A stretch of 64,000 bases of DNA from Coleofasciculus sp. FACHB-1120 (lineage in GTDB: Bacteria; Cyanobacteriota; Cyanobacteriia; Cyanobacteriales; FACHB-T130). Location of the stretch: NCBI RefSeq assembly GCF_014698845.1, contig NZ_JACJTV010000022.1, forward strand, positions 28,276 to 92,275, given 5' to 3'. The stretch's first letter is position 1, and the number at the start of each line of letters is the position of its first letter. The notes below the pieces were generated by a model. It was not told where the DNA came from, did no database searches, and saw only the letters and a program-made list of their open reading frames with translations. Made by a program: the position numbers and the translations under genes. Of this stretch, positions 47,435 through 53,718 are shown in pieces.

Positions 47435-47906
47435 AAAGAGAAGAAATTTACCCTAGAGAAAATAACCAAATATAACGGTTCTCATTTATGTCGCAATACA
47501 CTCGGAACCTTGCCCCCAAAGTCTCCACCTTTACGGCTATGGTTTCCCCACATCTCTTGAAATCCTGTAGGGGCTTTCGCATTCGCGCAGCAATACTTGG
47601 AGATGACCAACCCGATTACAATGCGAAGGCTTCTCTCGATCATGCAATTGCCGGGAAGGGCAGGGATGGGGTTATTTAGAGCATCTAATAGAGAATTACT
47701 ATATTCGCTGGAGCTGGCATCCCTCTTAAGTTTTGTCTTATCAAACATAAAGTTTTACGACAGGTAGTTGATTTGATCGGCAAAAATTCCGTAGCATTTG
47801 TTACAGAAATGTTTTGAAAATAGCTTATCAGTGGAGGCTCTTAACTGCGACGGAGAGCAGTCAGCCAACTCTGAGTGCTGTTATTGCTATCGGAGGGGAA
47901 ATAGAT
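47435..47906. other. Intergenic stretch without recognisable gene
   Basis: A 472-base interval between the response regulator and the next small gene. Short open frames on both strands (for example a minus-strand frame at 47482-47748) show no recognisable motif and no ribosome-binding site. I see no strong hairpin or repeat. Confidence 0.5.
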
Positions 47907-48155
47907 ATGACATTGAATTATTGCGTACTTCCTTTGCTGTCCCGGACTAGAAGCTGGGCACCTCAACCCAATCGAACCCAGTCTCAGATGGAGTATCAAG
48001 ATTCGACTTGGGTACAGTTGCTAGAACTTCCCAACCCCTATAGCCATGATGAAGCATTGCTACTTTGCCAGCAGTCTGAGGACGAATGGGTAGCATGGAT
48101 TCCGGATCATGGTGAAGCGGTGCTGCATACGAGTCAGTTTTATCGAGTTCGTTAG
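47907..48155 (+). CDS. Small conserved cyanobacterial protein
   Basis: The ATG at 47907 has a strong GGAGGGG about 8 bases upstream, so the 82-residue product MTLNYCVLPLLSRTRSW is preferred over the longer frame from 47814. WVQLLELPNPYSHDEALLLCQQSEDEWVAWIPDHGEAVLHTSQF is distinctive, and I recall it in hypothetical proteins of other cyanobacteria. The protein is soluble and acidic, with no domain I can name. Confidence 0.6.
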   Translation: MTLNYCVLPLLSRTRSWAPQPNRTQSQMEYQDSTWVQLLELPNPYSHDEALLLCQQSEDEWVAWIPDHGEAVLHTSQFYRVR

Positions 48156-48232: not shown

Positions 48233-48958
48233 TTATGGCACGAACCGCCCTAAAATGCCTTTAGCAATCTTTCTATCCCTCGGATTGGAAGAGAGCAAGC
48301 GCAACAACAATTGACGAAAAACCCAACGCCTCAGCAAGGGCAAAAATAACAGTAGCAGACGCTTAAAGCCTACTTGCAACAACCATGCCATTGCCATCGA
48401 TGCTAACAGCATCCATAAATTCAGGTGCTGTAAGCTAGAGATAACTGTCGCTGCCGTAGTTAGCAACGAGAGCATCCAAGATAGCCCATTTAACCATAAG
48501 GCAATCTTGAGCTGTAGCTGATTGAGCAGTTGATCGATTAGCCAGTGGTGGGCAGTTGCGATCGCTAAACACCAAATAGAATCTTTAAGACAATCGTGGC
48601 GGATTTGGTGAATGATATCTCCATCGAGAGCGATCGCACTCTGCATGACAAAGTTTTCCGCTACTGAGTCTCTACTCTCCGCTTTATTATAGTGAGTACA
48701 GAAAATCAGCCCAGGCTGTAAGCACCTTCCCGCATCTACTAGCGCATAAGAACGCAACTCTGCTAGTAAACGCCGGGAGATAGATAAGTTTTGTCCATTG
48801 GTTCTAGCTTGCAAAATTTGATCGAGGATGTTTTCATCTAAGTTGAATCTGATGAAATGAGACACTAACTGTCCTTTCGCGTCTTTGACTTCCTCGATTT
48901 GAATATATGAATCTAAATGAAGGGGTTTCCTAGAGGAACCTGATAGATTATTTCCCAC
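48233..48958 (-). CDS. Membrane-anchored member of the DGDI-motif cluster
   Basis: A 241-residue protein. A soluble N-terminal half (about 120 residues) ends in VMQSAIALDGDIIHQIRHDCL. This is followed by two hydrophobic helices (about 150-190) and a very basic Leu/Arg-rich tail that would face the cytoplasm. The ALDGDII phrase aligns with similar phrases in the three upstream genes. It is the last gene of the set, 62 bases behind its neighbour, so co-transcription is likely. I do not recognise a family. It could be the membrane anchor of a complex made with the other three proteins. Confidence 0.6.
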   Translation of the reverse strand: MGNNLSGSSRKPLHLDSYIQIEEVKDAKGQLVSHFIRFNLDENILDQILQARTNGQNLSISRRLLAELRSYALVDAGRCLQPGLIFCTHYNKAESRDSVAENFVMQSAIALDGDIIHQIRHDCLKDSIWCLAIATAHHWLIDQLLNQLQLKIALWLNGLSWMLSLLTTAATVISSLQHLNLWMLLASMAMAWLLQVGFKRLLLLFLPLLRRWVFRQLLLRLLSSNPRDRKIAKGILGRFVP

Positions 48959-49020
48959 TCCTTCTCAGCTCATCTTTCCTATTTTTTTGACCTGTTTTTT
49001 TGGGTTAGTTTTATCGGTAA

Positions 49021-49839
49021 TTAATTACGGTTTTTGAATAAATTCTTCATTGAGGAACTGCCTTGATTGACCAGCGATTCCACTAAATTTACCATAAACT
49101 CTAATAACCCGTGCCACTGTTTTTCACCCGCAGTAACCCCCTGTCTGTGGATATCTAAGATGATATCTTTATGCTCGTGTTCAAAAAGTCTTTGATGATA
49201 GCGGTTGATAATATCTCCATCTAACTGAATAATCGACTGGGCATAAATCATATCGGTTGTTACTTCTCCAACCGGATCGGTTGCTTGAGATTCTTCACTT
49301 TTTTGCAAAGATTTATTCCGACTATCCAAAGCTGCTTTCAGCTCATCAACCTTCCGCAAGCTCCGTAAAAATCTACTGTCGTCGAGTAAGTTTTGAATCT
49401 TGTTAATCTCAACAGCCGGATTCGCAGCAGGACTCAACGGGTTAGGCAATTTTGTTCTTTGAATATCCAGTTCTGCTGTAGGATCGCTGAGGATTCGGAC
49501 ATATTCTCTGAGTTGTGAAGCATCCTGTTCTAAAAGTTTCTCCTCAAGGCAATATAGGCAATACTCTGTCTCGATTTGTTTACGTAGACTCAGATACCGA
49601 GACCATAGAGATGGATGGATTCCTGTCCTTTCTAGATAGGTTGTGGAAATTGGGTAAATATCTCGATATGCTTCCCAGGGAATAAACTTAGTCCCGCTAA
49701 TGTGATCCACGACCATTGTATTCACTTCGAGAGCCGTGATGTCGATTAGTACATCGGTTAGAGACTGCAAAAAGTTGTTGAAATTTTTCCGCAGGTTGGG
49801 ATTAATTTCGTTGCTGTTAGTATCTGGCGTATTGACCAT
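49021..49839 (-). CDS. Soluble protein of unknown function, DGDI-motif cluster
   Basis: A 272-residue protein with no membrane helix or signal peptide. The N-terminus (FNNFLQSLTDVLIDITALEVNTMVV) follows the same pattern as the other two soluble members (ALSEAIELEITTWV). A helical, charged middle part follows. The C-terminal module IYAQSIIQLDGDIINRYHQRLFEH then leads to an amphipathic helix, WHGLLEFMVNLVESLVNQ. The middle part contains CLYCLEEKLLE, one CxxC pair. It starts 30 bases after the acidic gene upstream, so both are in one operon. No known family was recognised. Confidence 0.6.
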   Translation of the reverse strand: MVNTPDTNSNEINPNLRKNFNNFLQSLTDVLIDITALEVNTMVVDHISGTKFIPWEAYRDIYPISTTYLERTGIHPSLWSRYLSLRKQIETEYCLYCLEEKLLEQDASQLREYVRILSDPTAELDIQRTKLPNPLSPAANPAVEINKIQNLLDDSRFLRSLRKVDELKAALDSRNKSLQKSEESQATDPVGEVTTDMIYAQSIIQLDGDIINRYHQRLFEHEHKDIILDIHRQGVTAGEKQWHGLLEFMVNLVESLVNQGSSSMKNLFKNRN

Positions 49840-49869
49840 CGTTATATGAATCCAGTTTGGGTTTAATGA

Positions 49870-51102
49870 TTATTTGGATGGTGGCGGAGGCGATGGATTT
49901 TCAAATTCATCTTCATCAAATTCATCAAATTCATCAAACGGCTTTGGTGGTGTTTGTGAAGGTGTTGTTTGTGAAAATAAAGCCTCTTCAATGTTGACAG
50001 GCGATCGCGTATCCTCTGACATCGGTGGAGAAGGCTGGGTTGGCTCCACAGGGCTATCTCCAAACAAAACCGCTATGGGATCTGAAATGCGATCGCTAGG
50101 ATTGCTGCTGATATCAGGCGTCGTTGACGCCTCCTCATCTTCTTCCCAGCCATCGTCATTCTCATCCCAGGCCTCATCTTCTTCAACAGGCGCAAACCCT
50201 TCCGAGAAAAGGTTTGTCGGTTCCTCCTCGACTTCGACTTCTTCCCACTCCTCCTCCGTTCCCCAGTTCACTGCCGAGCCGAATTCGGGCGTCCACCCTG
50301 GCTCAAATGGTGGTTCCTGCATGACGGCTTCTTCCCGCTCCTGGGAACTCACAGATAGCTCTACAGGGGTTTCTTGTGCCGTTGGGGGAAGGAAATCGGA
50401 GGGAAGCGCCGAGCCGAATTCGGGCGTCCATCCTGGCTCAAACGGTGGTTCCTGCATGACGACTTCTTCCCCTTCCCATTCTTGGGCACTCACGGCTGGC
50501 TCTACAGGGGTTTCTGGGGTTGCTGGGGGAAGGAAATCGGGTATGACGGGTGGTGGAATGGGTGCAGTGTCAGTAACCGTGTTAATCTCCACGCGGGGGT
50601 CAAATGCGATCGCATTTGTTGGCGATCCCTCAACCAGTGACACTTCAGGCTCAATCGTCACGCGGGAAGCTGCGGTTTCGTCAGGCGGTAGACGAGGACT
50701 CTTAACTCCAGACAATTCTGGAGGAATCGGGGCAGCCTTAGGATTCTGGTACCCCACTCTTCCCAACATCCCAAATAACTTTTGCAAACTTTTGAGGTTG
50801 TCGTTGATAATCTCGCGGCTTTGCTGAACTTGCTCTAGATGGAATTGCCGCAGTTCGCTATAAGGGCCATTGTTGAGAAAGCGATCGCCAATCTCGTTGG
50901 TGATGTCGCCCTCGACAATATTAATCCGAGTCTGCATCCGCGAACCTGGTTGAGGCTGTTCTTCGCTTCTGTTGTCATCTATGTCGGCAGAGCTAACCCA
51001 GGTGGTGATTTCTAACTCAATCGTCTCACTGAGTGCCGTAGAAAGTGCCTCAACAATTTTGCCAGCTTTGAGTTGTTGTTTGAATTTGTCGCTTGCCGTC
51101 AT
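49870..51102 (-). CDS. Acidic linker protein of unknown function, DGDI-motif cluster
   Basis: The ATG at 51102 matches the start of the paralogue upstream, so it is preferred to the TTG at 51120. The first 125 of about 410 residues (KFKQQLKAGKIVEALSTALSETIELEITTWVSS ... TRINIVEGDITNEIGDRFL) are a close paralogue of the next gene upstream. The remainder is Pro/Glu/Asp-rich and probably disordered. It contains a direct duplication of a segment with MQEPPFEPGWTPEFGSA and ends in a highly acidic FDEFDEFDEDEFE tail. The plan suggests a folded domain with a long acidic arm, as in scaffold or partner-recruiting proteins. No function is known to me. Confidence 0.65.
   Translation of the reverse strand: MTASDKFKQQLKAGKIVEALSTALSETIELEITTWVSSADIDDNRSEEQPQPGSRMQTRINIVEGDITNEIGDRFLNNGPYSELRQFHLEQVQQSREIINDNLKSLQKLFGMLGRVGYQNPKAAPIPPELSGVKSPRLPPDETAASRVTIEPEVSLVEGSPTNAIAFDPRVEINTVTDTAPIPPPVIPDFLPPATPETPVEPAVSAQEWEGEEVVMQEPPFEPGWTPEFGSALPSDFLPPTAQETPVELSVSSQEREEAVMQEPPFEPGWTPEFGSAVNWGTEEEWEEVEVEEEPTNLFSEGFAPVEEDEAWDENDDGWEEDEEASTTPDISSNPSDRISDPIAVLFGDSPVEPTQPSPPMSEDTRSPVNIEEALFSQTTPSQTPPKPFDEFDEFDEDEFENPSPPPPSK
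50273..50540. repeat. In-gene tandem duplication of about 130 bp
   Basis: Copies at 50273-50399 and 50408-50540 are closely similar, differing by scattered substitutions and a two-codon length difference. Both run in the same reading frame and encode DFLPP...MQEPPFEPGWTPEFGSA. The spacer is 8 bp, so it looks like a recent segmental duplication lengthening the disordered arm. Confidence 0.75.
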
Positions 51103-51376
51103 AACCAGATTTCCAGCCAATTGTGAGTTGTCAATAGAAAGAGGACTGAGGTTTGAGGAATTAGATTTGAGGGCTTAGATTTGAGGTTTGAAGTAACTAG
51201 GGTACAAGCCTTTCCAAACCTAAAATTAGAGGCACAATTTGTTTCAATTAGATGTAGCCAGGAGATACAAAAGGGACTGATTTCAAGCCCAATTTTTTAA
51301 GTTTGGGATTTACTCAGCGCTCAGAACTCAGTCCTGAAACGAAGCATTGACCTTTGACTTGCATTTATTGTGACTC

Positions 51377-51808
51377 TTAAGGGTTTTCTGGATCGACGGA
51401 AGGTAATACTTGTTGCGGATTTGAACGTAAACGCGACCCAGGCATCTCAGACAGCGTGTTCGTTAGAACTGTAAACAACTGTTGTAAGTTTGCCAGGTTT
51501 TCCTGAATAATTTCCCGACCTTCGTGAACTTGCTGGAGGTGAAATTCCCGCAATTCGTTGTAGGGGCCACTATTGAGAAATTCGCTGCCGACTTCATTTT
51601 CAATATCACCATCCACAATGTTAATGCGGGTTCGCATAGAGTGACCGGCTAAAGGTTGGTCTGTTCTCACACCAGGCGAGGTGTCTGAATTAGCCGATGA
51701 AACCCAAGTAGTGATTTCTAACTCAATGGCTTCGCTGAGTGCCAAGGTGAGTGCCTCAACAATTTTGCCAGCCTTGAGTTGTGCTTTAAACTCGTTACTT
51801 ACTCCCAT
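51377..51808 (-). CDS. Conserved soluble protein, DGDI-motif cluster, short paralogue
   Basis: A 143-residue protein starting at an ATG with GGAGGG upstream. It matches the N-terminal domain of the acidic protein downstream through most of its length: FKAQLKAGKIVEALTLALSEAIELEITTWVSSA, TRINIVDGDIENEVGSEFLNSGPYNELREFHLQQV and EIIQENLANLQQLF. I recall close relatives in other filamentous cyanobacteria annotated as hypothetical. The product looks like a compact alpha/beta domain without membrane segments. A 256-base gap separates it from the rest of the set. Confidence 0.65.
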   Translation of the reverse strand: MGVSNEFKAQLKAGKIVEALTLALSEAIELEITTWVSSANSDTSPGVRTDQPLAGHSMRTRINIVDGDIENEVGSEFLNSGPYNELREFHLQQVHEGREIIQENLANLQQLFTVLTNTLSEMPGSRLRSNPQQVLPSVDPENP

Positions 51809-52157: not shown

Positions 52158-52754
52158 TCATCCTTGCCAAAAATCGGTGACATCGTATCCCAGTTCACCG
52201 AACATCTGACGAAGTAGTGGCAAGCTCAGACCAATGACATTCGTATGGCAACCTTCCAGTTTGTCTACAAATAGTCCCCCTTTCCCTTCCAAGGCAAAGC
52301 AGCCAGCACATTTGAGGGGTTCGCCAGTGGCGACATAGGCTTCAATCTGGCGATCGCTAGCATCGGCAAAATAAACTTTTGTGATACCGTAGCGTACCAC
52401 CGTTTTGTCTTGCTGCTGGTCAATTAAAGCATGACCCGTATAGAGTTCACCGATTTGAGAGCGCATTTTTTGCCAACGGGCGATCGCTTGTGCTGCATCT
52501 GCTGGTTTCCCATGAATCTCACCGTTAACCAGCAATACCGAATCGCATCCCAATATCAAAGCCTCTGGAAATTGACTCGCAACCGTTTCAGCTTTCCGCA
52601 GCGCCAAAGTTTGCACCAATTCGGATGCAACGCTAGTTGAGACTTGGGACTCATCAAAATCACTAGGGCAAACCACCGGCTCGATTCCGGCACTTTGCAA
52701 CAGGCGGCGGCGGGCTGGAGAGGCGGATGCTAAGACTAAAGTAGGAAGGTTCAT
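52158..52754 (-). CDS. maf: Maf nucleoside-triphosphate pyrophosphatase
   Basis: A 198-residue protein, normal length for Maf/YhdE/YceF. The N-terminus [19 protein letters not shown] is the signature (S-x-S-x-R-R-x-x-L). [22 protein letters not shown] holds the catalytic Asp, and [33 protein letters not shown] completes the family. It hydrolyses non-canonical or modified nucleoside triphosphates and has been linked to septum control. It stands alone between hypothetical genes and the CyanoP gene, 134 bases from the latter. Confidence 0.94.
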
Positions 52755-52888: not shown

Positions 52889-53434
52889 TCAATAGACGGA
52901 AAATGAACTGACAACTTGCTGCAACAACGGCTTCAACTTGTTCCAGCGTTTTTCTGTGGTAGAAGCGTTGAAGGTGACGAGCTTACCGCGACTGATGGCG
53001 ATAGACGCAAGATTGTGGCGTTGCTGATTGGGGAGTTTGACGGTGTATTCCAGTATGTAATAAATCTTAGAGTTAGATTCCAGCTTTTCAGCGTTCACTA
53101 ATTCTGCCTCGCGTCCCGATCCTGGGGGTGCGATCGCGCTTTTTGATAATTTGTATCCTACTTCCGTCGGTGTCCCCAACTCAGTAAGGCTTTTCCCTGC
53201 CCCAACTGGGTTAATGACGACGGACACATTTTCAGAAGGCTCAATGATATCGTGGAACACCACATCGGCTTCACCTTTCACCTCGACTGGAAGCCAGCCG
53301 TTGGGATATAGGAACTGATAACCATCGGTGCTATCTACATAGCTTTTTAAGCCACTGGTGGCACTGGCGACAGTGCAACTTTGCAAACTTACGGTTAATA
53401 CCACGAGTATTAGTGCAGCAATCCGTTTTAGCAT
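52889..53434 (-). CDS. CyanoP, PsbP-like photosystem II lipoprotein
   Basis: A 181-residue protein from the ATG at 53434, which follows AGAGGG; nine upstream in-frame residues are unlikely to be used. The signal peptide ends in VSLQSC, so the mature protein is probably lipid-anchored in the thylakoid lumen, as CyanoP is. GLKSYVDSTDGYQFLYPNGWLPVEVKG is the PsbP domain start. VFHDIIEPSENVSVVINPV and YYILEYTVKLPNQQRHNLASIAISRGKLVTFNAST follow. CyanoP helps photosystem II assembly. It is divergent from the sensor kinase gene. Confidence 0.92.
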   Translation of the reverse strand: MLKRIAALILVVLTVSLQSCTVASATSGLKSYVDSTDGYQFLYPNGWLPVEVKGEADVVFHDIIEPSENVSVVINPVGAGKSLTELGTPTEVGYKLSKSAIAPPGSGREAELVNAEKLESNSKIYYILEYTVKLPNQQRHNLASIAISRGKLVTFNASTTEKRWNKLKPLLQQVVSSFSVY

Positions 53435-53718
53435 TTCCCTCTTTCCTTGCAATTTTGTCACTAAGCGCCATTTGTCTCATTTTCCCACTTCCGGGGAACT
53501 TCAGAAGAAACAGCACTACAGACCAAATAACCCGGTTTACAGTTGAATCCTACACCTGCCTCCTGACAGAGAGAGAGGCAGGGGCGGGGTTAAAATGTGC
53601 TGCATCCAAACGAGAATTGTTATAAGTCTTTCTTCTGCTTTGTGCTTGTCTTCCCCTAAATTCGGGTTTAGCTTTGCTTTCCCAAGTATCAGGGAGCTTT
53701 TTAACTTTGCTTTTTTCC

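Follow-up and report, generated by a model that had tools for sequence, protein, structure and literature searches.

Proteins of the YbaB/EbfC family (PF02575) are described as having a canonical topology of a helix, three strands and a helix, and as dimerising through their sheets to give a tweezer-shaped dimer that binds DNA (PMC9610160). A YbaB-like arrangement can also serve protein partners. EspH of the ESX-1 system is predicted to be YbaB-like, binds EspE and has been proposed to act as the EspE chaperone (PMC6107294), and EspL is reported to stabilise EspE, EspF and EspH (PMC6319747). EspH, EspD and EspL, which are mycobacterial and tied to type VII secretion, offer a precedent for functions beyond DNA binding. 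Here, we describe four genes, A to D, in a 64,000-nucleotide stretch of DNA (the window) from the cyanobacterium Coleofasciculus sp. FACHB-1120 (GCF_014698845.1, contig NZ_JACJTV010000022.1, positions 28,276 to 92,275), whose products carry diverged copies of one small module, for two of which a YbaB-like arrangement is predicted.

The four open frames lie within 48233..51808 on the minus strand and follow each other in the transcription order A to D, the listed frames being separated by 256 (A to B), 30 (B to C) and 62 bases (C to D). The 143-residue product of gene A (51377..51808) is a stand-alone module of a helix, three strands and a long helix with near-invariant T34, G67, H90 and N104, in which, judging from the predicted model and the sequence, D66-G67-D68-I69 (51602..51613) forms the turn joining predicted strands 57–63 and 68–73. 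Gene B (49870..51120, 416 residues) encodes an A-like module, in which this segment reads EGDI, and an acidic arm; its alignment with A makes the ATG at 51102 a more likely start than the TTG at 51120. Gene C (49021..49839, 272 residues) encodes a module in which, in the predicted model, a helical insert separates strand 1 from strand 2 and D207-G208-D209-I210 (49210..49221) occupies the hairpin turn. The product of gene D (48233..48958, 241 residues), as read from its sequence, carries the module, in which alignment places D112-G113-D114-I115 (48614..48625); membrane segments are predicted after it, and the tail is basic. A preliminary description, made from the letters alone, had reported four co-oriented genes whose products it could assign to no known family. 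All four frames were found as described, and library searches with the four proteins reached no curated family in Pfam, PADLOC (0 families at an expectation value, E, of up to 1) or PHROG (insignificant matches only). The gene set is real and has no match in the libraries searched, which we regard as moderately surprising.

That the four proteins share a module centred on [DE]GDI was not apparent from plain pairwise alignment of the window proteins, in which A and B are clearly similar (score 359 versus a shuffled maximum of 44) and C and D marginally so (49 versus 48, with 0 of 300 shuffles reaching the score). The pairs A-C, B-C, A-D and B-D did not rise above shuffles, 20, 30, 170 and 150 of 300 of which reached the respective scores, and since most pairs fail in this way, the window alone does not establish a four-way similarity. 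Family profiles and hhalign comparisons do support it. Profiles of families A, C and D, built from 25, 21 and 24 relatives, were used in a non-iterated search of 8792 open frames from fetched loci, in which 6110, 5924 and 6985 non-family candidate frames were ranked, respectively. Sister-family proteins made up 57 of the 60 best outsider frames for profile A (37 C, 20 D), 50 of 60 for profile C (39 D, 11 A) and all 60 for profile D (58 C, 2 A). These matches are to be read as enrichment rather than as separate proofs, because close relatives among them are not independent, and the scores are modest: the best match of profile A to a C protein has 14.0 bits and that of profile D to a C protein 25.7 bits, and the best of the ten unrelated frames within the top 60 of profile C has 11.8 bits. 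The best non-classed match of profile A (24.0 bits) is a second module in locus L053. In hhalign, all scores among families A, C and D exceed those of 39 decoy families. The C-D (E 8.6e-7, probability 92) and A-D (E 9e-5, probability 59) alignments take in the GDI segment and the conserved histidine, and the A-C alignment (E 1.2e-3, probability 20) is confined to the N-terminal helix and strand, with GDI outside it. At the level of sequence, these comparisons show the modules of A to D to be of common descent, as diverged copies of a single small module, in line with the duplication and specialisation first suggested.

The most conserved residues coincide between the families. With the window protein counted as one row in each case, conservation is 1.00 for H90 and N104 and 0.99 for G67 and T34 in 139 A-module rows, 1.00 for T41, 0.99 for H231 and 0.98 for G208 in 100 C rows, and 1.00 for G113 and 0.99 for H137 in 94 D rows. 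The near-invariant histidines (H90/H231/H137) and glycines (G67/G208/G113) of A, C and D are superposed by hhalign. Predicted models of A (predicted local distance difference test score, pLDDT, 82) and C (pLDDT 78, with the insert) have an identical order of elements, helix, three strands, helix, as in YbaB/EbfC, and hold GDI at an equivalent place; a common fold around this segment, which the preliminary description had named as a check, is thereby predicted for A and C. A YbaB structure heads the list of solved structures for both proteins. The five YbaB structures of a 2022 review, 1j8b, 1pug, 1ybx, 3f42 and 5yrx, occupy ranks 1, 3, 4, 5 and 8 of the list of A; the list of C is headed by 3f42, with 1pug in fifth place and the alignments spanning the insert.

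Two of the proteins extend beyond the module. The arm of B (residues about 123–416, 49873..50754), presumably disordered to judge from its composition, is acidic and repeat-containing, as the preliminary description had noted. At the protein level it has a two-copy repeat of about 45 residues, at residues about 195–239 (50404..50538) and 242–285 (50266..50397); Tandem Repeats Finder found only short DNA repeats. Among 55 armed proteins gathered, near-copies included and two genomes doubly counted (L032/L074 and L036/L097), arms range from 154 residues (L078, partly masked) to 1813 residues, with a median net charge of -24.8 per 100. The motif [DN]P[LIFMV]..LF, of which DPIAVLF (50062..50082) is an instance in the window, occurs in 18 of the 55 arms, whereas 100 shuffles gave 0.41 on average and 3 at most, and DPF or NPF in 37 versus 12.5 in shuffles. 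One B relative, a 1944-residue open frame at L034:1835-7666, has an arm in which SLWEETPATPSLELVEETEEE-type units recur. For D, two membrane helices and a basic tail had been described. The window protein has one hydrophobic segment above threshold (residues 188–206, 48341..48397), although 70 of 93 D open frames have at least two; at least one is present in 89 and none in four. The basic tail stands, with a median charge of +4 beyond the last segment in the 89 frames.

Of 194 genomes from 110 genera drawn from the class of the window, 40 contain an A module, 31 contain C and 31 contain D (20, 14 and 14 genera, respectively). The C and D genome sets are identical and lie inside the A-module set; 14 of the 31 C-D genomes belong to one genus (g38). 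The C profile was also run against named genomes, and the best 80 of the resulting 100 loci were kept; the detected members are co-stranded in 80 of 80 loci and mostly closely spaced, in taxa including Trichocoleus, Symploca, Moorena, Coleofasciculus, Spirulina, Roseofilum, Hormoscilla, Prochloron, Nostoc and Anabaena. Gene orders are ACD in 37 loci and ABCD in 28, the remainder being partial and some of them at contig ends; D is present in 75. Several observations weigh against strict linkage. Nine A-module genomes have neither C nor D (G005, G007, G010, G014, G045, G059, G081 with an armed module only, G157 with two tandem modules and G093 with a contig-end fragment), in G021 A/B lie about 9 kb from C/D, and in two of the five D-less loci, Moorena L073 and L075, D is found elsewhere in the genome. 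A genome-wide search, run for L073, L075 and L082 of these five (which also include L076 and L077), found no D in L082, a metagenome-assembled genome. At L073, in Moorena bouillonii (G210), A as well as D lies far away, and the operon is dispersed: A maps to about 1.82 Mb, B and C to about 2.03 Mb and D to about 1.19 Mb; all four genes are nevertheless kept. Gene set and gene order are conserved, and linkage among relatives, which the preliminary description had named as a check, is supported, though not as a strict rule. In four Nostoc genomes with C and D (G206–G209), no A module was detected at E up to 0.01. C-D is thus constant as a pair, and A/B is the part that varies. Two further arrangements were noted. 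In M. bouillonii, a second partial D match stands directly beside D. In L053 (G157), psbP and maf are followed by a tandem of A and a diverged second module, and neither C nor D was matched, so that this may be a decaying system.

We tentatively hypothesize, giving this somewhat less than an even chance, that the modules of A to D assemble in the cytoplasm on the predicted membrane anchor of D as a hetero-oligomeric scaffold, and that the arm of B recruits partners. C and D would form the core pair on the anchor, the modules may pair via their strand sheets in the manner of YbaB dimers, A and B would be peripheral, exchangeable subunits, and the arm would act like a fishing line, catching a putative client by means of its DP(L/I)xxLF and DPF motifs. 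This proposal is suggested by sister profiles that rank each other first and beat decoys, the aligned His and Gly, the co-occurrence of C and D and the co-stranded loci; by the retention of A to D in M. bouillonii despite a broken operon; and by the like predicted folds of A and C with YbaB at the head of both structure lists, the membrane-type segments and basic tail of D, and the charge and motifs of the arm. The original observation is confirmed and its interpretation partly supported: duplication and specialisation of one module, linkage among relatives and the absence of a known family are borne out, and the four proteins may form one membrane-associated complex. If true, this conserved set of duplicated modules would be a new membrane scaffold for cyanobacterial cell biology and an example of a YbaB-like fold put to use in hetero-oligomeric assemblies on a membrane. 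A bolder version seems doubtful to us, namely a so far unrecognised cyanobacterial machine in which duplication of a nucleoid-protein fold gave rise to a tweezer complex of four subunits, fastened to a membrane by D, and a B fishing line of up to 1.8 thousand residues extends into the cytoplasm and gathers DNA or clients at the membrane.

The predicted YbaB-like arrangement of A and C, together with the DNA-binding tweezer dimer of YbaB (PMC9610160), could instead indicate a membrane-tethered nucleoid clamp, in which the modules retain DNA binding, D ties DNA to the membrane and the arm is a DNA mimic or brake. Basic residues of C conserved in more than 90% of 100 rows, including R159, R162, K163 and K168 in the insert, and its slightly basic last helix (+4.8 per 100) fit this idea, but in A no position is basic in 90% of rows (position 57 has 0.80, R87 0.75 and K8 0.71) and the helices are neutral to acidic. 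Helix charge does not decide the matter, because YbaB helices are also slightly acidic. There is, however, no sequence match to YbaB: PF02575 was not matched by A, B, C or D at E up to 5 or by 25 A-family members at E up to 10, nor was it among the 25 of 29 families listed for 24 D members at E up to 10, and when 18 cyanobacterial YbaB domains were compared by hhalign, they ranked 3 of 42 with A, 42 with C and 41 with D, the rank with A coming from a helix of 19 columns. The insert of C, the membrane segments of D and the arm of B further set the proteins apart from YbaB/EbfC, and a true YbaB is separately present in the source genome (G000:C4). We consider such a clamp unlikely. It is quite unlikely that the genes form a dedicated chaperone set, in which A and C hold or stabilise B or another client and pass it to D at the membrane, as proposed above for EspH and EspL with ESX-1 substrates: A-C-D persists in loci lacking B, and no type VII gene occurs among the nine recurrent neighbours given a Pfam search, the other neighbours being unannotated and no dedicated search having been made.

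The flanking genes, counted over 108 stretches (L032–L138 and the window, near-copies included), bear on a possible role as a photosynthesis regulator or assembly factor. In the window, maf (52158-52754) and psbP (52889-53461) lie upstream of A on its strand. Over all stretches, 22 have maf and 17 have psbP, directly upstream in many non-Nostocales, and the two genes are co-directional and at most three genes upstream in 22 and 16, respectively; the armed gene of family f21 is near prk- and petH-cluster genes. However, the flanks differ by clade, with ftsH, an aminotransferase gene and ackA around Nostoc-group loci (in opposite orientation in the loci listed) and other genes in other clades, and the core is kept while they change, making it highly unlikely in our view that the position after psbP and maf is functional. 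An anti-phage or mobile element module, as the patchy distribution (40 of 194 genomes) and variable arm might suggest, is very improbable given flanks that recur within clades, no PADLOC match and insignificant PHROG matches.

Other neighbours were also noted. A small protein encoded at 47814-48155 on the plus strand, convergent with the 3' end of D and about 88–113 residues long across relatives, belongs to a cluster seen in seven stretches, window included; neither it nor its L032 relative matched a Pfam family. In L038, L052, L054, L055 and L056, genes of the prk and petH clusters are close to the armed gene or to B-C-D (Pfam was run on the L038 copies only), and further genes nearby are presumably fbp- and carbonic-anhydrase-like. 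DUF4327 (PF14217), a small protein of uncharacterised role that lies near the operon in some loci, is a separate family and an inconstant neighbour. Its cluster is near the operon or an armed single gene in 5 of the 108 stretches (L037, L041, L045, L054 and L056), from genomes of different families; PF14217 was confirmed for L037 and L054, and the end of the DUF4327 protein, DPVSELLAVE, resembles the arm motif.
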